Shown here piece by piece: positions 8,757 to 17,203 of a DNA stretch of 20,858 nucleotides (its first letter is position 1; the number at the start of each line of letters is the position of its first letter). The position numbers were made by a program, and so were the translations under genes. The stretch spans positions 1-20,858 of IMG/VR virus record IMGVR_UViG_3300042879_001178; one strand, 5' to 3'. The DNA comes from a virus. The notes beneath the pieces were generated by a model. The model worked only from the letters and a program-made list of their open reading frames with translations. It made no database searches and was not told where the DNA came from.

Positions 8757-9290
8757 TTATGCCGTTATGCGGTTAGTAATGCGCTGTGCTTCCTGCACTG
8801 CCTGCGTGATCAGCCGTAGCGCGTTGCCTTTTTCTTTTTCTTCGCCAGCCCAAATGCCACGCGGTTTCTTGACAGCCTGCGCCATGTTGGCACGCATTGA
8901 CTCACCCTTAGCCGACGTTCGCGCACCTGGCCTTTTGGCGTGTCCGACGTGGTGAAAAATTACTGTCGCGGCATCATCAGACGCAACACCAATTGCGTTC
9001 GTGACGAACACGCCACGGTTCCGCTTGATCTTTCCGGAACCCCTAGTGACCTTGATTGTTGACGCGGCACGCGAAGCCTCAAAGCTCAGGTCAGTACCGT
9101 TACGCGTAAACGTCCAACGGCCCCAATTCGACAAAACGTCAGCAGACATAAGTTCAGCGCGAGCAACCCGAACAATTGCAGAAGCAGCTTTAGTTATCTC
9201 GCGTTGAATCAGTTTGTACTGAACTTCATCGTATTCTTTCAGCGCTCGCATGGTGGCATCAAACCCGGCAATGTTCACGCGCTGTGCCAC
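8757..9290 (-). CDS. Probable tail-completion/minor tail protein (HK97 gp10-like, tentative)
   Basis: I read 177 residues from a GTG at 9290, ten bases past the frameshift-product stop and near an AGG-containing site. GTG codons at 9293 and 9278 are alternatives. An in-frame ATG at 9362 would overlap the chaperone and is less likely. NIAGFDATMRALKEYDEVQY at the N-terminus, the helical ITKAASAIVRVARAEL and a later FHHVGHAKRPGARTS resemble HK97-gp10-like tail completion proteins, which link tube and neck. It is highly basic towards the C-terminus. Position between the tail chaperones and tape measure is unusual for that family. The family call is weak; that it is a virion-assembly protein is likely. 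Confidence 0.6.
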   Translation of the reverse strand: MAQRVNIAGFDATMRALKEYDEVQYKLIQREITKAASAIVRVARAELMSADVLSNWGRWTFTRNGTDLSFEASRAASTIKVTRGSGKIKRNRGVFVTNAIGVASDDAATVIFHHVGHAKRPGARTSAKGESMRANMAQAVKKPRGIWAGEEKEKGNALRLITQAVQEAQRITNRITA

Positions 9291-9297
9291 CACGCAC

Positions 9298-9719
9298 CTA
9301 CTTTCGCTGTTGCTTACTTTGTTGAGTATTACGCCAGCGCAGGTATCGGTACATAGTAGCAATTGTGCGGGGGTGCTGCCCGGCTACATCGTCGGGCAGC
9401 ACGCCCCATTCGTACGCTAGATGCGTTATCAGCCAATGGGCTGAGTGCTCTCCAAAGGGGCAAGGTCTGCTTCCTCCGTGTCACCGAATTCAATTGATGC
9501 GACTGTTTCCGACCAAGGATCAAAGTCAGCAGTAACCAAATTCTTTCGCTTCAGCGCCGTCCACGTAAGCCACAACATGTATTCAATGCGAACCTGTTCG
9601 CTGAAAACTGCCATTGACTTATCGAAGTGTCGTTCAAATGCGATGAGATCGGGCGCAGACGCAACAACATCTGCGCCCGATCCATCTTCGTACTGTACGT
9701 GCAGTGGCAAACGCATCAT
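9298..9719 (-). CDS. Tail assembly chaperone, -1 frameshift product
   Basis: A -1 slip at CCCTTTG (9453-9459) joins residues 1-89 of the short chaperone to 51 more residues, ending at TAG 9298-9300, for about 140 residues in total. The appended part reads GEHSAHWLITHLAYEWGVLP, then DDV, and later TIATMYRYLRWRN. It has the composition and aromatic pattern of the C-terminal part of siphovirus chaperone fusions (lambda gpGT type), which bind tape measure and tail tube subunits and are absent from the virion. The slip site is in the right phase, lies 22 bases before the zero-frame stop and is followed by a hairpin. Seen directly: frame, heptamer and hairpin. Slippage itself is inferred from family precedent. 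Confidence 0.85.
9429..9459 (-). promoter_or_regulatory. Programmed -1 ribosomal frameshift signal
   Basis: The heptamer C CCT TTG fits X XXY YYZ in the zero frame, so both tRNAs can re-pair at CCC and TTT. Eight bases downstream a 6-bp stem (TCAGCC / GGCTGA, loop CATT, 9429-9444) could stall the ribosome. The zero-frame TGA is in the 3' arm of this stem. Efficiency cannot be estimated from sequence. Confidence 0.8.
9429..9719 (-). CDS. Tail assembly chaperone, zero-frame (short) product
   Basis: The 96-residue protein lies between major tail protein and tape measure genes. It is acidic at its C-terminus (FGDTEEADLAPLESTQPIG) with a helical centre (DLIAFERHFDKSMAVFSEQV; YMLWLTWTALKRK). This is the usual form of the short tail chaperone made in excess over the frameshift product. 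An AGGAG site lies 7 nt upstream of the first of two adjacent ATG codons. The frame ends in a double stop, TGA TAA. Family assignment rests on position, form and the adjacent slip signal. Confidence 0.85.
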   Translation of the reverse strand: MMRLPLHVQYEDGSGADVVASAPDLIAFERHFDKSMAVFSEQVRIEYMLWLTWTALKRKNLVTADFDPWSETVASIEFGDTEEADLAPLESTQPIG

Positions 9720-10186: not shown

Positions 10187-10588
10187 TTATGCGTAGACCG
10201 TGACCGCAAATTCTGCGGAAAGGTATGTGTTTTCTGCAATTTGAATTGCGGTATAGTTCCGCATTTCAGTTACTCGTAGGGTGTTTGCTGCCCCTGCGAG
10301 AGTCTTGTCCCGCTCAATCGCGGTTTTGATTGAGCCTGCACCTGTCGGTGCGCAGTATGCGTCAAGCGTGTTTTGTGCTGTTCGCTCGTCCACCCGGCCA
10401 ACAATGACCAACACGACGAATTCGTACTGATCTAGGCCGCGCCCCATTGACGTATCCCAAATAACCCGCTGTGGCATTACAACGGCCACTGGCGGCTTAG
10501 GATCGTCGGGCACGGTGGCTGATGTGCGAAGCCCTGTTATGGTCGCCAGGTTTGCCGCTAGGCCCGTGCGAAGGGTGGTCATGCTCAC
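10187..10588 (-). CDS. Probable tail terminator protein
   Basis: The 133-residue protein starts MSMTTLRTGLAANLATITGL and contains PDDPKPPVAVVMP, then a strand-rich core (YEFVVLVIVGRVDERTAQNT) and a C-terminal AENTYLSAEFAVTVYA. This layout matches siphovirus tail terminators, which cap the tail tube and dock it to the head. It lies between the head-tail adaptor, which it overlaps by four bases, and the major tail protein. A head-tail stopper is an alternative, since no separate stopper gene is seen in this interval. No catalytic role is expected. Confidence 0.65.
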   Translation of the reverse strand: MSMTTLRTGLAANLATITGLRTSATVPDDPKPPVAVVMPQRVIWDTSMGRGLDQYEFVVLVIVGRVDERTAQNTLDAYCAPTGAGSIKTAIERDKTLAGAANTLRVTEMRNYTAIQIAENTYLSAEFAVTVYA

Positions 10589-11196
10589 GCGATACCTGCC
10601 GGGGTGCGGCGCAGTGGGGCAAGGATCATTGCCACGTCAGGATCGAGACGCGACCCGACGCGAACCGCACCCATATCACCGAAGCCTAGAACCCCGGTAG
10701 GGCTGTCGTATCTCTTATATTGCCTGAGCGCAAGCAGGATCGTTGCGTGCGTCACCTGCGTAGGGACAGCAGTACCAAACCCGAACACGCCCGTAATCTC
10801 AACAGCAACTTCATTACCCACAATGGGGAACAGGTAGTCACCTACGGCACGAAGCGTCATCGTGGGAAAAGCAAGTCCTGACGCGGTGCGGTTGCCCGGC
10901 TCTAGCTGGTAATCGGAAGGTGTCCACGTCAGGTCATAAATGCCGTCAACGTCGCTTGAAGTTTTGACCGTGATCGCTGTTCCGATTACATCATCAATGG
11001 GGCACACGTAGGAAGTGTCGGCAGCAAAGTAGCGGGTTTCCGTACCTGCCGTGTAGAAGCGGCGTTCGCAGTATCCGTCAACCATGCGGGATGCGGTTTC
11101 GGTGCACATTTCTAGCATGGTGTCGTCAACGCTGTCCGTGATTCTGGCGGCAGCTTTAACCTGTGCCAGCGTGGCATAACCGTTAGTTATCGGCAC
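10585..11196 (-). CDS. Head-tail adaptor (connector) protein
   Basis: The 203-residue protein has a helical start (YATLAQVKAAARITDSVDDT, then LEMCTETASRMVDGYCERRFY) of the kind found in HK97 gp6/SPP1 gp15-type adaptors, followed by a beta-rich insertion (TWTPSDYQLEPGNRTASG) and a C-terminal helix near ATILLALRQYKRYDS. Such proteins form a ring under the portal that receives the tail. It starts with GTG, preceded by a strong AGGAGG site 9 bases after the methyltransferase stop, so it is translated independently of the inserted cassette upstream. The assignment is well supported by form and position. Confidence 0.75.
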   Translation of the reverse strand: MPITNGYATLAQVKAAARITDSVDDTMLEMCTETASRMVDGYCERRFYTAGTETRYFAADTSYVCPIDDVIGTAITVKTSSDVDGIYDLTWTPSDYQLEPGNRTASGLAFPTMTLRAVGDYLFPIVGNEVAVEITGVFGFGTAVPTQVTHATILLALRQYKRYDSPTGVLGFGDMGAVRVGSRLDPDVAMILAPLRRTPAGIA

Positions 11197-11204
11197 AGCG
11201 CCTC

Positions 11205-11735
11205 CTATTTGACTGAACCAAAGAAATACAAATCATGTGATGAATCATTAGTCATAAAATTCCATTCACTGAACATTGAATCAAGATCAAGTTCAGTAAT
11301 GAAATCCTGCGCAGTCAGGTTCCTATAATAGTCCCAACCAAGACTGACAGTAAGTGGCGAACAGTTCGGGGTGGTGCGTTCCGTCCCATGTTCCGCCCGG
11401 CCCGTCGTGGCGCAAGACATAAACACCATGCCGTTACACATACGCGCCATGTTGGCAAACGTGTCGGCCCAATACGGGTTGTGTTCCAAACATTCAGCAC
11501 TGATCACCGTGTCAAAAGTTTTGTCAAGGTAATCTAAATTCTGACCCTGGCACACCACATCCACGCCCGAACCTGCTGCAACATCTACACCCACATATTT
11601 GCAGTCAGTGAAGAAATCCCGAACCGTGCCATTGATGTTCAATGAACCAACTTCAAGAACACGCACAGCATTAAACGATGCCGGAAACTTAGCGACCATT
11701 GACGCGAAAAATTCGCGCTGCTCAACATGTGCCAT
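11205..11735 (-). CDS. Class I SAM-dependent methyltransferase
   Basis: The 176-residue protein shows motif I VLEVGSLNINGTVRDFF (26-42) for S-adenosylmethionine binding, motif II YVGVDVAAG (D51) and motif IV/post-I DTVISAECLEH (75-85). The acceptor is not evident: there is no DPPY motif of adenine DNA methylases and no PC motif of cytosine C5 enzymes. With two glycosyltransferase genes immediately upstream, methylation of a sugar or of a glycan-bearing protein is the simplest reading. It is the last gene of a three-gene cassette between capsid and adaptor. The fold is confident; the substrate is inference. A host-like biosynthetic origin is possible. Confidence 0.8.
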   Translation of the reverse strand: MAHVEQREFFASMVAKFPASFNAVRVLEVGSLNINGTVRDFFTDCKYVGVDVAAGSGVDVVCQGQNLDYLDKTFDTVISAECLEHNPYWADTFANMARMCNGMVFMSCATTGRAEHGTERTTPNCSPLTVSLGWDYYRNLTAQDFITELDLDSMFSEWNFMTNDSSHDLYFFGSVK

Positions 11736-11736
11736 G

Positions 11737-12378
11737 TCAGTCCCACGTCAGTATGCGTCGGCGGCGAACATTCCACACGCCTTCGCTGTAATCGTTGCGG
11801 CTCATCTTGTCATGGTAATACTTCATATTCAAATCATACGTTTCGTTATTGCGCTGTTCGTATCCGGCTTTCAGCGTGCTGCTGTTCGCATGATTTATCG
11901 GAATGTCAGTGCGGCGAATCATTGGCCCGATACGTTCGCACCTGCGTTCGTAGTCTAAATCTTCAAAGTATGCAGGGTGCAAAGCCTCATCAAATAACCC
12001 GACAGCGTTCACCACGGCAGCACCAAGCGCAAACGCGGCCCACGGCGGGAACGCATCAGACAGCACCAGCTCGTGCGCTGTCGCTTCCTTATCGAAACGT
12101 TCCAATGATCCTTCAGGCCAAGTCACATCAAAATTAGCAATGAGCCAATACGGGGCAAACGGTAATGACTTTATGCCAAGGTTCCACGAACCAGCTACGC
12201 CTAGATTGCTTGGCATAGTGACAATGTGAATGTTGTGAACGTGCTTCGCAGTGACTTCCTTGACACAGTGCCCATTGTCAATAATGACTAGGTGTTCAAT
12301 CGGGTAGTCAATTGTGGCAAGCATTTCGTCAAGCAAATTGGGTCGCGCCAGAATTGGCACGATCATTGCCGGGATCAC
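11737..12378 (-). CDS. GT2-like (GT-A fold) glycosyltransferase
   Basis: I chose the GTG at 12378, which overlaps the upstream GT4 stop as GTGA and follows GGAAA; this gives 213 residues. A GTG at 12402 is possible but overlaps the upstream gene more. The N-terminus VIPAMIVPILARPNLLDEML, the NLGVAGSWNLGI segment (58 on), the metal-binding position ANFD (D84, in place of the usual DxD) and FEDLDY (E139, D140) are typical of family 2 glycosyltransferases, which transfer a sugar from a nucleotide donor. No membrane span is seen, so it should act in the cytoplasm on a phage protein, a glycan begun by the neighbour, or DNA. The acceptor is unknown. Confidence 0.82.
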   Translation of the reverse strand: MIPAMIVPILARPNLLDEMLATIDYPIEHLVIIDNGHCVKEVTAKHVHNIHIVTMPSNLGVAGSWNLGIKSLPFAPYWLIANFDVTWPEGSLERFDKEATAHELVLSDAFPPWAAFALGAAVVNAVGLFDEALHPAYFEDLDYERRCERIGPMIRRTDIPINHANSSTLKAGYEQRNNETYDLNMKYYHDKMSRNDYSEGVWNVRRRRILTWD

Positions 12379-13580
12379 AAAGTTTCCAACAGTGGTCGCC
12401 ACGCGTTTTCATACACCGTGTCAGCGTCATAGTTTTCAACAACGAACGCCCGTGCCGTGTCTGACTTTCCGTCACCCTTACGTTCGTAGGCTTCGTTCAG
12501 CGCGGTCACCATGTCCTGCACGCTAGGCACGTTGAACCATGCGCCCTGTGCAGCATCCCATAGCGGCTGTCCACCAACCTTCCAACCGTCACCGATCAGT
12601 TCAGGCTGTGCACTAAAATTGTTCACAATCACAGGCGTGCCGCATGACTGCGCATCAATAACGGTGATCCCGAATCCTTCACCGTATGTCGCGGCAAGCA
12701 AAACGTTCATGCCTGTATAGATTGCGGCAAACACGTTGTCAGGAATTCCCATACGCTGCTGATACTGGTTCACGAACACGAACTGATCAGGGCGCAAACC
12801 TACAGCTTCAATGAGGGTATCGAAATTGATACCACCCATGCCGCCTGTCTTTTCTGTATGCAAATACAGAACAGCGTCAGGCTTGTCTTTGGCAAAGATA
12901 GAGAACGCAAGCAATTGTTCACCGAACGCCTTGCGGTTAGGTGACACACCCTTGTTCGCGTTGACGATACCGACAACGAAAGCGTCATCAGGGACGTTCA
13001 TTATTTGTCGCCCGGTGCGCCAACCGTTAGCGGTGTCAATCTTTGCTGTCGGCTTCAGCACGTTTGTTTCAATAGCGTGCGGAATATAAACGTTGTCAAT
13101 GTCTAGGCGGGTCAACTGTTCTGACCCGAACTTGCTCATAGCGACAGGGGTCACGTTCGGCTTCGCACAGAACGCGGCAACACTGCTAGGTGCTGGCAGG
13201 TGGTCAATGGGAACCCATGACACAAGCTGCACTTCATCTAGGCGCGGATTCTTCAACACCCACACGTCATAAAGCGTGAACAGCGGATTGCGACTGGTGT
13301 CATATTGCCTGCACCAGTCAGCGTGATAAGCGTTCATCACATCATTTGAATACGCATCAAATCCGCGTGGGAAATGCGTGATGCCTTCCCACTCAGTCAT
13401 TGTTGCTTCAAGGCCATAATTCGCGGTAACCGCGATGTGGTGACCGTCAGCAATCATCCGGGAAACTACTTGACGCGTTTGCGTACCATAACCCGTTTGT
13501 GCCCACGCGGCATTGGAAAACCAAGTGCCAGCGATCATGTTTCCGTTACGTGCCGCACGGCGGCGTGCTGCTCTATCCAT
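12375..13580 (-). CDS. GT4-like (GT-B fold) glycosyltransferase
   Basis: From the ATG at 13580 the protein has 401 residues. TGYGTQTRQVVSRM (from residue 29) fits the N-terminal glycine loop of GT-B enzymes. In the C-terminal domain GIVNANKG, LYLHTEKTGG and EGFGITVIDAQSCGTPVIVN match family 4, with E301 and D309 where the classic E-x7-E pair sits (here E-x7-D). The family retains configuration and uses nucleotide sugars. An upstream in-frame GTG at 13667 was set aside because its first codons are the arm of a strong hairpin. It follows the capsid gene and overlaps the GT2 gene. Modification of virion proteins is the likely purpose, by analogy with phages whose capsids or tails carry glycans. 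Confidence 0.82.
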   Translation of the reverse strand: MDRAARRRAARNGNMIAGTWFSNAAWAQTGYGTQTRQVVSRMIADGHHIAVTANYGLEATMTEWEGITHFPRGFDAYSNDVMNAYHADWCRQYDTSRNPLFTLYDVWVLKNPRLDEVQLVSWVPIDHLPAPSSVAAFCAKPNVTPVAMSKFGSEQLTRLDIDNVYIPHAIETNVLKPTAKIDTANGWRTGRQIMNVPDDAFVVGIVNANKGVSPNRKAFGEQLLAFSIFAKDKPDAVLYLHTEKTGGMGGINFDTLIEAVGLRPDQFVFVNQYQQRMGIPDNVFAAIYTGMNVLLAATYGEGFGITVIDAQSCGTPVIVNNFSAQPELIGDGWKVGGQPLWDAAQGAWFNVPSVQDMVTALNEAYERKGDGKSDTARAFVVENYDADTVYENAWRPLLETL

Positions 13581-13634: not shown

Positions 13635-13669
13635 CTGTGTGGGGCGGTCCTGCGCCCCGCCCCACACAG
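13635..13669 (-). terminator. Perfect GC-rich stem-loop after the capsid gene
   Basis: A 13-bp perfect inverted repeat (CTGTGTGGGGCGG / CCGCCCCACACAG) with a 9-base loop lies 21 bases past the capsid stop. On the minus strand no T-tract follows, while on the plus strand TTGTTTT follows after 5 bases. It could be a tail-less terminator, a partial terminator or a 3' end protector of capsid mRNA. Confidence 0.6.
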
Positions 13670-13690: not shown

Positions 13691-14875
13691 TTATGCAGCG
13701 TTGCCCGTAAAGACCTTAACAGCGTCGGACTGACCAAGATCGCCCCAGATACGCATGGTGACACGGAAGCCAACCTCATCAGATGCGAAGTAAGCATCGT
13801 CCGAACGTGCAACTTCAATGCCGCCAACCTGGCGAACGTGGTACGAACCGAACCAACCGAACGCAACCGACTTCGCGCTGGTTGCCGTAGCGGCAACGTC
13901 GGGGTTCTCGAAAATCGGGAAACCCATGAACGAATCGGCAACGCCGATCGAAGCAGCCGGAACATACAGGTACTGACCTGCGGTGTCCTTCAGCTTGCGA
14001 AGCGTGCCCATGCTTGAACGACGCATCATCCAACCCGCACCGTTACGGACGTAAGCGCCGTCAACGGAGTGAGCGAGATCAATGAGGTTGTCAGCAGTGA
14101 ACGCGCCACTGACAGCAGTACCACCAGTGATACCAGCGCCAGCGGCAGCAATGATTCCCTTAGCCTCAACAGTGCCAGTGCCAACAGTCAGAAGGTTGTT
14201 GACCTTGATACCGATAGAAGTTCCCAGGGTGCGGCCCAGGTAGGCAACGAGATCAATGCCCGAATCCTGAAGCAGCTCGCGGCTGACCTTGGTGAGAACA
14301 GCGACCTTCTGTGACTTCAGCGTGATGCTGGAGAACGTGGGGTCAAGTTCCGTGATGGTCGTGCCTTCAGCGATTGCGGTTGCTGCGGGGCGGGTAGCCT
14401 CAACAGGAACCTTAATATCTTCGCCGGAAGCGGTGTTGAGCAGGGTGACAATGTTGCCGTCAAGCATCGGGCCGACGGTGACAAGCTTCTCCTGAATAAC
14501 GTCGTAGAACGACTGCGGAACGATTGAAGAATCGTCAGCGGTGTTCAGGTCACGACGCTCAAACGTGTGCGAGCGAATCTCACCAGCGGCGAGTGCACGA
14601 ACAACGTCAAAGTCACCTGCGGTCTTGGCGGCGCGAACGTCGCGGATTTCAGGTGCGGCAGCCATTGATGCTTCAATGTCGAAGGCGCGTGCCTCAGCGG
14701 CCTGAAGGTCACTGATCTTCTGCGAACGCTCATCAATGTCAGCCATCATACGGCTGTAGGACTGCTCCTCATCGGCAGACAGATCGCGCTTCTCAGCGGC
14801 TGCCGCGTCAAGGAGCGACTTGGCGGCGTGCCACGCCGACTGGCGAGCCTCCACCTGGCGCTTCAGGTACTCCAT
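13691..14875 (-). CDS. Major capsid protein, HK97 fold
   Basis: The 394-residue protein has a charged, coiled N-terminal region (1 to about 75, MEYLKRQVEARQSAW ... DERSQKISDLQAAEARA), which matches the delta domain that serves as built-in scaffold and is cut away by the protease. The mature part includes the typical E-loop and A-domain segments: SSITLKSQKVAVLTKVSREL, LVAYLGRTLGTSIGI, GWMMRRSSMGTLRKLKD and GFPIFENPDV. It follows the protease gene after a 98-base gap with stem-loops, and GGAAAGGGGA precedes the ATG, consistent with strong independent translation. Cleavage probably lies between about residues 75 and 110; the exact site is not visible. Confidence 0.92.
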   Translation of the reverse strand: MEYLKRQVEARQSAWHAAKSLLDAAAAEKRDLSADEEQSYSRMMADIDERSQKISDLQAAEARAFDIEASMAAAPEIRDVRAAKTAGDFDVVRALAAGEIRSHTFERRDLNTADDSSIVPQSFYDVIQEKLVTVGPMLDGNIVTLLNTASGEDIKVPVEATRPAATAIAEGTTITELDPTFSSITLKSQKVAVLTKVSRELLQDSGIDLVAYLGRTLGTSIGIKVNNLLTVGTGTVEAKGIIAAAGAGITGGTAVSGAFTADNLIDLAHSVDGAYVRNGAGWMMRRSSMGTLRKLKDTAGQYLYVPAASIGVADSFMGFPIFENPDVAATATSAKSVAFGWFGSYHVRQVGGIEVARSDDAYFASDEVGFRVTMRIWGDLGQSDAVKVFTGNAA

Positions 14876-14973: not shown

Positions 14974-15786
14974 TTAGATGCCGAAAGTTTTAGCGGCAAG
15001 ATCAATCTGCTTTTGCAGAAGTGAAATGGGAATGGAAACGCTGGCCTCAACTTCAATTTCAGTTCCGTCGCCTTCGTGCATAGCGCCTTCCCCTTCATGG
15101 GTCACACCGTCGTAACCAAGTTCGCCTAGGTTCTCCATACCCACAACCCCATCGTCACTCAGTTTCAAAGTATTGATAACTTCAAAAAGTGTAGCAACCT
15201 GATCGGCAGTCAAAGTGTTTCCGGCTTGCAGCTCATTGATTGCCAGCGCGAGCGCGTCAGCGTCTACTGACGCACGGGTAGCAAGGTCACGCATGGCGCG
15301 AACACTAGCAGTCGTCTGCGGGTATGCGGGAACACCAGTGACAACACTGACTTCATGCAAACGAACTTCATTTAGGGTGCGCTCGTTTCCGTCAACTGAC
15401 CACGCATCCTTGACAGTAGAAAATCCGAAACTCATTCCGGTTATATCGCCCCTTGCAACCAAAGCGCGAATGTCGCGCCCCGCTGTCGTGTCAGGCAAAT
15501 CAATTTCAACGTAGCCACCGTCAGGACGATCTTCAATGCGCAGAGTCTTTGCACGGGTCGAACCAAGTAGCAGCGTGTCATCGTGATTCACATACGCCCG
15601 AATGTCATTCTTTGACTTCAGCGTGCGAGTGAAAGCACCTGGCGCGATACGTTCGGTGAAAGGCAGCGGAAGGCTAGGTGCGTTGTATCGCCACGCGTAA
15701 CCGCCGAACGTCATTCCGTCGCCGTTTTCCATTGCGCGAATCTCAGTGACTTCCGCTGCAAAGGTGCGGATTTCAATAGCTGACAT
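14974..15786 (-). CDS. Nested in-frame start: protease-only form (putative)
   Basis: Inside the long gene, ATG 15786 (residue 237, MSAIEIRTFAAEVTEIRAME) is preceded by AAGGAAGGACAGAA, one of the best Shine-Dalgarno sites in the window at ideal spacing. It starts exactly at the protease domain. The product would be 270 residues and would include the whole catalytic domain and acidic tail. Nested products are known in phage head genes such as lambda C/Nu3. Use of this start is inferred from the ribosome site and domain border. Confidence 0.6.
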   Translation of the reverse strand: MSAIEIRTFAAEVTEIRAMENGDGMTFGGYAWRYNAPSLPLPFTERIAPGAFTRTLKSKNDIRAYVNHDDTLLLGSTRAKTLRIEDRPDGGYVEIDLPDTTAGRDIRALVARGDITGMSFGFSTVKDAWSVDGNERTLNEVRLHEVSVVTGVPAYPQTTASVRAMRDLATRASVDADALALAINELQAGNTLTADQVATLFEVINTLKLSDDGVVGMENLGELGYDGVTHEGEGAMHEGDGTEIEVEASVSIPISLLQKQIDLAAKTFGI

Positions 15787-16494
15787 TTCTGTCCTTCCTT
15801 GCAAACGATTTGATTCACGTTCTAGCCAACGGGTCGCGGGTCTAGGATCAGTGGGGTCAATTCCCCACAGGTAATGTGCGACAGCTCCCGCACCGGGCCA
15901 TTCTGGGTCGTCAGTGTTTCGGTTCTTTGATGCTTCAAGGTCTACAGCGTGCCGCTGTGACCAAGCGTAAGCGCGGATAATCTTATCATCTGAAATGTTT
16001 CCGTCAGCCATTTCACGCGCTTCACGCACAGTCTGATCAGTAACGCCGTCACCCGCGAAACCTTCACGGCGCAATTCCAAACCACGTGCCGCCGCTGTTT
16101 GCATATAGTTTGGCGGTGTCGCCCTAGTCTCAACAGGTATTGATGCGGGTACGCGTTCTTCCCCTTCGGGCTGCCACGCGTTGCAGTAGTAAGCGCCGCT
16201 CACGTAGTCGTCCCATTTTTCGCACCAAGCTTTATCGCCGCGCACGTTCGTTTCATCATAGAAGTAGCAGTTGCCGCACGCCCTACCTTCTGGCACCGAC
16301 TGATCCAATGCGGGGCGGTAGTTGTCTGGCAGTGCGCGTTCCCCACCGGGCCGCATACCCTCTTGAATGGACACGGCAACCATTTGCTCAATAGCGTCCT
16401 TCTTATTTGCGTGACAGCCGACTACACGACCAGTTTCCGCGATGGTTGCCCAACCGCTGCAATCAGGAGACTTGTCAGTAATGTAGTACGGCAT
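14974..16494 (-). CDS. Prohead protease with N-terminal Cys-rich extension (capsid maturation protein)
   Basis: The 506-residue product starts at ATG 16494, after the upstream stop and an AGGA site. Residues 1-45 hold a small domain (SPDCSGWATIAETGRVVGCH). Residues 73-104 hold CGNC ... WC ... YYC, four cysteines likely binding a metal. A third segment (about 127-225, PPNYMQTAAARGLELRREGF ... WPGAGAVAHYLWGID) resembles domains fused to other phage proteases. From residue 237 follows an HK97-type protease with the expected H304, S355 in GMSFGF and E381 in LHEVSVV. The acidic end (EGEGAMHEGDGTEIEVEASV) may act in scaffolding. The family cuts the capsid delta domain and itself. An internal start at 15786 may give a short form. 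Confidence 0.85.
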   Translation of the reverse strand: MPYYITDKSPDCSGWATIAETGRVVGCHANKKDAIEQMVAVSIQEGMRPGGERALPDNYRPALDQSVPEGRACGNCYFYDETNVRGDKAWCEKWDDYVSGAYYCNAWQPEGEERVPASIPVETRATPPNYMQTAAARGLELRREGFAGDGVTDQTVREAREMADGNISDDKIIRAYAWSQRHAVDLEASKNRNTDDPEWPGAGAVAHYLWGIDPTDPRPATRWLERESNRLQGRTEMSAIEIRTFAAEVTEIRAMENGDGMTFGGYAWRYNAPSLPLPFTERIAPGAFTRTLKSKNDIRAYVNHDDTLLLGSTRAKTLRIEDRPDGGYVEIDLPDTTAGRDIRALVARGDITGMSFGFSTVKDAWSVDGNERTLNEVRLHEVSVVTGVPAYPQTTASVRAMRDLATRASVDADALALAINELQAGNTLTADQVATLFEVINTLKLSDDGVVGMENLGELGYDGVTHEGEGAMHEGDGTEIEVEASVSIPISLLQKQIDLAAKTFGI

Positions 16495-16498
16495 TTGT

Positions 16499-17203
16499 CT
16501 AGTCCTGCCTTTGAATCGCCAAGGCACATGCTGTGCCGTTTGCTGATGCGTAAACCGCTTCACCGGGATATAGGTCCATTGTGATGAGCTCACCGCCGCG
16601 CAAACGTATTGCGCTTCCTGCTGTGCCTAAGTAAATGTCATGCAGCCCGTTGTATTGCTCAGTAAAGCCAAGTTCAAAATGAACGTCTGTTGCGCCTGAT
16701 GATGCGACGAAACTCATTGCATATTTCGTTGAAGGCTTTAGTGTGTGCACTTTGACGGAAGAAATCACACCGCCGCCCTGCTTACTTGTTGGCACAAATT
16801 CTGAACTGATGACAGTTCCGCCCGTGATGTTTGTTGCGCGAGTCAATACAGACTGATATGAGTCAGAATGATTCCTGTTTAAGTTGTATGCCTGAACTGC
16901 TGACCCTGCTGTGTAGTTAACGCCTTCAATCAAAGAAGCGTTCACGCTGTTCGACGCAACGTCAATGCTGTAAAACTCAAACTGTGCGCCGTGTGATCCT
17001 GTATTCAAACCGAATGACACCGTGCCACCGTTAGACACACTAAAAAACGATTGCGCCAAGTAGACGTAACCGTCACGGCTGTAGTCACCAACGTCGCCTT
17101 CAGGCTGCTGATTTTGTAGCACCACACGCTGTGTGTCGGTGCTTGGTGGCACAACCATTGTTTGCGCTGTGCCGACAGTGACAACACTACGTGAAATCGT
17201 CAC
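16499..17203 (-). CDS. Unrecognised beta-rich protein between portal and protease
   Basis: The 234-residue protein starts with GTG, overlapping the portal stop as GTGA. It is rich in Ser, Thr, Val, Gly and Asn with alternating strand patterns (TVSFGLNTGSHGAQFEFYSI; TKYAMSFVASSGATDVHFEL) and ends with a domain that looks compact and beta-sandwich-like (LRGGELITMDLYPGEAVYAS). There is no signal peptide, membrane span or catalytic motif. I do not recognise the family. Being inside the head module and coupled to portal translation, a virion role (decoration protein, head fibre or portal-associated part) is the best guess, but it is inference only. In most HK97-like phages the protease directly follows the portal. 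Confidence 0.75.
   Translation of the reverse strand: MTISRSVVTVGTAQTMVVPPSTDTQRVVLQNQQPEGDVGDYSRDGYVYLAQSFFSVSNGGTVSFGLNTGSHGAQFEFYSIDVASNSVNASLIEGVNYTAGSAVQAYNLNRNHSDSYQSVLTRATNITGGTVISSEFVPTSKQGGGVISSVKVHTLKPSTKYAMSFVASSGATDVHFELGFTEQYNGLHDIYLGTAGSAIRLRGGELITMDLYPGEAVYASANGTACALAIQRQD

Follow-up and report, generated by a model that had tools for sequence, protein, structure and literature searches.

What two glycosyltransferases (GTs) and a methyltransferase are doing among the head genes of a phage, and on which molecule they would act, is the question raised by the locus described here. The window, the whole stretch of DNA that was analysed, is a partial, linear virus record of 20,858 bases. 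Its late genes lie on the minus strand in the order small and large terminase, portal, prohead protease, major capsid protein (MCP), GT4-type GT, GT2-type GT and methyltransferase (MT), followed on the same strand by a gp6-like adaptor, tail terminator, major tail protein, tape measure and tail/fibre genes. A megablast search with the whole window against named phages gave no match; among named phages, Pontimonas phage phiPsal1 comes closest, with an MCP that is 40 % identical.

Two side observations concern this late region. The prohead protease (14974-16593) has some 280 residues N-terminal to its S78 domain, its reading frame overlaps that at 16499-17203, and tblastn matches in relatives are often split there, so this N-terminal part is variable. 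Between the major tail protein and the tape measure, two small open reading frames (8757-9719) resemble a frameshifted tail assembly chaperone pair; in the relative L006 (6942-7542), the second of the two is divided between frames.

Three coupled genes and a hairpin

The MCP (13691-14875, minus strand) belongs to the HK97 family (Pfam Phage_capsid, 8.3e-56; phrog_10, 1.9e-70). It is followed by the GT4 gene (12375-13580, minus strand), coding for a GT-B type enzyme of 401 amino acids that matches Glycos_transf_1 above the cut-off (3.5e-9) and phrog_2170 (3.7e-34). Its EX7E-type motif reads E301-X7-D309 in the window, with E at the second position in most relatives. The GT2 protein (11737-12378, minus strand; 213 amino acids) has no match in Pfam and is assigned by phrog_29879, annotated as "galactosyl transferase" (1.1e-41), and by structure. 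As PDB sequence searches with GT2 and MT gave nothing useful, a fold search was used for both proteins. The AlphaFold model of GT2 (pLDDT 89.7) has as its best Foldseek matches in the PDB GT-A enzymes only, all with a probability of 1.00; D92, D148 and D150 are its invariant acidic residues. The MT (11205-11735, minus strand; 176 amino acids) matches phrog_32762 (4.8e-73) and, weakly though above the cut-off, Methyltransf_11. The fold search with its model (pLDDT 86.7) led to class I small-molecule methyltransferases, and the protein carries a glycine-rich motif I, EVGSLNINGT, and the invariant residues G30, D51 and D75. It is thus a class I SAM-dependent methyltransferase.

The three genes are real and tightly coupled. 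The longest GT2 open reading frame spans 11737-12402, but the GTG at 12378, which many relatives use, is the likelier start codon and gives a 4-nt GTGA overlap of the GT2 start with the GT4 stop; GT2 and MT are 1 nt apart. The adaptor gene (10585-11196, minus strand; Phage_connect_1; phrog_442, 2.5e-18) forms the constant downstream border of what is shown below to be a variable region. It has a ribosome-binding site of its own, AGGAGG (11201-11206, minus strand), 4 nt ahead of its GTG and overlapping the MT stop codon. The original prediction, of a coupled GT4-GT2-methyltransferase set between the capsid gene and a head-tail adaptor with its own ribosome site, thus holds for gene order, families and coupling.

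It also holds for the upstream boundary, where a perfect 13-bp stem-loop had been noted. This structure (13635-13669, minus strand) lies in the MCP-GT4 gap and has arms at 13635-13647 and 13657-13669 and a loop of 9 nt. The region folds more stably than its shuffled versions (z = -3.1), and of the 88 relatives in which the MCP-GT4 gap could be measured, 82 % have at the same place a stem longer than that in 95 % of their own shuffled sequences. In the close relative L012, all 13 pairs are kept despite an altered arm, with CTGTGGGGGACGG replacing CTGTGTGGGGCGG. The stems of relatives differ in sequence, so it is the hairpin and not a particular sequence that is kept at this joint. A canonical intrinsic terminator after the MCP gene was considered and ruled out, as no T-run follows the stem-loop. 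On the simplest reading, the hairpin is probably either a partial stop or a protector of the MCP transcript end, in both cases lowering GT4 expression relative to that of MCP. In three relatives (L039, L082 and L095), the same gap is occupied by HNH endonuclease genes that run on the other strand, possibly homing elements that use the joint.

A constant GT4 and an exchangeable slot

Further relatives were collected by tblastn scans of IMG/VR, to which one contig from a genome bin was added. Profile searches of all loci yielded 152 that span MCP to adaptor with a near-full-length MCP, and collapsing these at 95 % MCP identity left 89 representatives. GT4 is the first gene behind MCP in all 89, disregarding the opposite-strand HNH gene present in a few loci, and it is directly behind MCP in 62 of 62 relatives that were found via MCP alone (window included). 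As these relatives are the best-scoring matches, deeper branches may differ. One locus, L105, seemed to lack GT4, but there GT4 and an MCP fragment are inverted with respect to MT-GT2-adaptor, probably by an assembly inversion. At about 30 % identity, the MCP has more distant relatives in PV036457 and Bordetella phage PHB09, where neck genes come immediately behind it. The GT4-GT2-MT set is therefore specific to the clade, and GT4 would have entered once and early in it, or have been lost outside it.

Pairwise identities tell the two GTs apart. Over 32 loci, the correlation with MCP identity is 0.85 for GT4, 0.83 for portal, 0.75 for the major tail protein and 0.71 for the adaptor, while it is only 0.47 for GT2 (31 loci). 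GT4 therefore behaves as a core gene of the head module and GT2 does not. The congruence between GT4 and MCP is not significantly higher than that between MCP and portal, and such co-inheritance is by itself no proof of substrate specificity. The original prediction that the three genes are a unit added to a pre-existing late operon needs revision in the light of these results: GT4 is as much part of the head module as the portal gene, and it is GT2 and MT that are exchangeable. Related genomes have many alternatives for GT2 and MT, and in phiPsal1 the MT gene is inverted.

The locus is carried by many uncultured viruses, a large lineage of small phages that very probably infect aquatic actinobacteria. 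All of 16 long records of the lineage encode WhiB, which marks phages of actinobacteria (PMC10202952), and the hosts are therefore very probably Actinomycetota.

Behind GT4, the 89 representatives show 35 arrangements of recognised families, of which GT4-GT2-MT is one; the number is approximate, since a few assignments are below curated cut-offs, a few open reading frames have no assigned family and GT4-GT2 fusions were counted with the loci that have GT4 alone. Turnover is fast: among pairs with 90-95 % MCP identity, only 40 % have the same arrangement. The assigned genes of this slot nearly all belong to families of glycan synthesis. They include GTs of families GT2, GT11 and GT17 and GT32-like and TOD1-like ones (Pfam Glycos_transf_2, Glyco_transf_11, Glyco_transf_17, Gly_transf_sug and TOD1_MUCI70), and further hexapeptide (acyl)transferases, FkbM, Methyltransf_23 and 24, Epimerase, cytidylyltransferase-like, GFO_IDH_MocA and MptE-like proteins and a radical SAM/SPASM protein. 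Most slot proteins are soluble, as only 6 of 333 reach membrane-spanning hydrophobicity (KD of at least 1.9).

In many relatives, the end of GT2 (11737-11760 in the window; ..TGGGACTGA) runs into the start codon of the following, unrelated genes (ATGGGACTGA..), which gives these the identical N-terminus MGL. Several families do show this overlap, which is possibly a coupling site that aids gene exchange. The residues at the GT2 end (SWD-stop) are, however, also conserved where GT2 is the last gene, so that a protein constraint is possible, and the idea of a docking start codon was set aside.

That GT4, GT2 and MT act jointly, as had been suggested from their order, is supported by their associations elsewhere. 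Of 32 places where the MT family occurs, 28 have the same GT2 no more than 1.3 kb away. MT and GT2 are fused in seven open reading frames of other phages (L090:8001-9329, L089:8001-9308, L091, L093, L096, L100 and L101), two of which were checked with Pfam. Five relatives have a GT4 that ends in a GT2 domain, and on contig L264 (5908-8598) a single open reading frame of 896 amino acids has the domain order GT4, GT2, FkbM methyltransferase. The GT4 domain of this protein is 34 % identical to the GT4 of the window. The fusion gene follows immediately on a scaffold gene and an MCP gene related to that of Microcystis phage Mae-JY09, in a head module that is unrelated to that of the window; two unrelated head modules thus have GT4 as the gene next after MCP. 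The fusions, together with the loci of Mae-JY09 and Synechococcus phage S-CBS4 described below, indicate that the three activities form one pathway, which has become attached to several head modules. The MT also occurs with a GT partner away from head genes, namely in the PhoH-encoding phage L090 and in Streptomyces phage KimJongPhill, which weighs against the virion reading given below. The MT-GT2 fusions adjoin giant multi-domain GTs, such as a protein of 1064 amino acids with GT2, GT25-like and GT17 domains (L090:4817-8011). The KimJongPhill set (L183:6060-8533) has the order GT-MT-GT, lies far from the head genes and contains a distantly related MT; the gene next to it may code for an oxygenase-like protein.

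Proposed function and target of the cassette

In the window, the cassette would be one form of a locus for glycan building that the whole lineage has inside its head operon. We consider it probable that it serves virion glycosylation, carried out late and in the cytosol, with the capsid as the most likely target. During late transcription of the head genes, GT4 would start a glycan on, or transfer a sugar to, a virion protein, most likely MCP; GT2 would then extend it and MT would cap or modify the sugar that GT2 had added. The hairpin probably holds the enzymes at catalytic levels relative to the capsid protein. Exchange of the genes behind GT4 could give related phages with similar capsids chemically different surface glycans. 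The protein target, the order of steps, the identity of the sugars and the effect of the hairpin are all inferred here, as is the benefit, which might be shielding, adsorption to surfaces or evasion of recognition. Modification of the virion, already suggested for the original three genes, remains the leading reading; a virion protein as target fits the late place in the head operon, the repeated occurrence of the genes behind MCPs that are unrelated, and what is known of mycobacteriophages Corndog and Che8.

The foremost alternative, which we regard as unlikely, is that the enzymes act late in infection on wall polysaccharide or teichoic acid of the host envelope, thereby blocking superinfection or re-adsorption of progeny to debris. 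GTs of aquatic phages are often interpreted in this way (PMC10202952, PMC7029224). The slot does resemble surface-polysaccharide genes, with its epimerases, cytidylyltransferase, GT11 and hexapeptide acyltransferase, the Foldseek matches of GT2 include enzymes of wall glycans (TarP, TarS, GlfT2 and RmlT), and a soluble enzyme could possibly act on a lipid-linked glycan of the host. Against this stand the scarcity of hydrophobic slot proteins, the lack of any above-cut-off match to the GtrA flippase in 16 long records and the constant place in the head operon adjoining MCP, unrelated MCPs included.

Somewhat less likely still, in our estimate, is that a tail protein (the tail tube, adaptor or Gly-rich fibre) and not the capsid is the main substrate. 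In mycobacteriophages, the tail tube carries glycans in addition to the capsid (PMC12619734), and GT4 identities follow those of the major tail protein too (rho 0.74). The capsid is nevertheless preferred over the tail, since GT4 lies directly behind MCP, in both head modules, and since MCP identities follow those of GT4 more closely than those of the major tail protein (bootstrap difference 0.01-0.20); as it tracks GT4 no better than portal, this evidence is modest. An attachment site is not indicated, as the Ser/Thr content of the C-termini of MCP and the major tail protein is only slightly raised, with no convincing enrichment.

Glycosylation of the phage DNA to evade nucleases, as has been proposed for the GTs of freshwater actinophages E7 and F5 (PMC10202952), is very improbable here, given the late position in the head operon and the outcome of a search for the thymidylate-synthase-family (dCMP hydroxymethylase) gene, which found it in none of 16 long records, the complete phiPsal1 genome included, while controls were detected. 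A search for Tet/JBP-type base oxygenases also gave no match, but its control was likewise unmatched. A neutral mobile "moron" without a role in the virion, for which the HNH genes in the MCP-GT4 gap of three relatives and the lower GC content of MT (0.467 versus 0.577 for MCP) might speak, is hardly conceivable in view of the invariable presence of GT4, slot replacements that are almost always glycan enzymes, the fusions and the conserved hairpin.

Returning to glycosylation of the virion, a GT beside the capsid gene is invariably kept in the lineage, and the enzymes encoded behind it change faster than the capsid does. This suggests that the viruses make a coat of sugars for their own particles and vary it. 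It may even be, although we put this forward tentatively and think it somewhat short of an even chance, that GT4 is an anchor inherited with the capsid that primes a capsid glycan, and that the hypervariable tailoring slot behind it creates "capsid serotypes" under diversifying selection in aquatic actinophages. With the same reserve, the locus might be to these viruses what an O-antigen or capsule locus is to bacteria. If its products do sit on the particle, phage capsids that vary in their glycans would be widespread in nature, the variation having arisen with enzymes unrelated to those of mycobacteriophages; the question would then be what selects for differing capsid sugars in water and sediment, be it grazers, surfaces, host lectins or other phages. 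Loci with GT4 alone, with GT4-GT2 and with GT4-GT2-MT offer natural comparisons for assigning the steps to the enzymes.

Comparison with known glycosylation systems

In the literature covered, virion glycosylation has been proven only in a few cultured mycobacteriophages. The GTs of Corndog and Che8 glycosylate capsid and tail tube (PMC12363180, PMC12619734), gp38 of Corndog is reported to be necessary for capsid glycosylation (PMC12363180) and the capsid protein of Che8 carries attached glycans (PMC11256854). GTs of freshwater actinophages have been interpreted as modifiers of DNA or wall (PMC10202952), and pelagimyophages contain hypervariable GT regions near their tail fibres (PMC7029224). 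A search of the open-licence literature for a capsid-linked, conserved GT4 with an exchangeable tailoring slot gave no description.

Serotype-conversion cassettes of the GtrABC type are likewise phage-encoded sets of sugar-transfer genes. They require a membrane flippase and a lipid-linked donor. The slot studied here codes mostly for soluble proteins, and 16 long records of the lineage gave no above-cut-off match to GtrA.

The phage phiPsal1 (MG835450), which was deposited without further discussion and has reportedly been lost (PMC6106888), is a member of the lineage with the same head module and has GT4, MT and GT2 between MCP and neck; unlike in the window, its MT is inverted and sits between GT4 and GT2. 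An orthologous GT4-GT2-MT set in the same order is present in the structural region of Synechococcus phage S-CBS4 (gp14-16). Its MT is 56 % identical, but its GT4 only 22 %, and the set is located between portal and protease in an unrelated head module. In Microcystis phage Mae-JY09 and contig L264, a GT4 of the family lies close behind MCP. GT2 and a tailoring enzyme come next as separate genes in the former, where the enzyme is an epimerase (GT4-GT2-epimerase), and are part of one protein with GT4 in the latter, where it is the FkbM methyltransferase; the head module of both is unrelated to that of the window.

The closest likeness in kind is to gp35-38 of Corndog (gp33-36 of Firecracker; cluster O), where an O-methyltransferase and GTs form a cassette within the head operon (PMC4351075). 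That cassette is situated between portal and protease, whereas that of the window is between MCP and adaptor. For sequence comparison, Firecracker and Catdawg were used in place of Corndog, and no homology of Firecracker gp33-36 to the lineage profiles was detectable. Che8 (cluster F1) has a similar multi-gene set of GTs with an MT (gp108-110), homologous to Firecracker gp33-36, but at the right end of its genome, while the set of the window is in the structural operon. The slot-family GT2c profile gave a single weak match to Che8 gp108 (3.8e-5). With this exception the mycobacteriophage enzymes are not homologous, so those of the lineage would be of independent origin. This lack of homology weighs against the virion reading. 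GT and MT genes in a structural operon have a precedent in Corndog gp35-38. Like the Corndog and Che8 systems, the present locus combines at least two GTs, with or without a methyltransferase, in one operon, here a structural one, and by analogy it would work as these do, with proteins from outside their set of families. A virion-glycosylation cassette as such is therefore known; the capsid-linked GT4 variant, its independence and its variability appear to be new.
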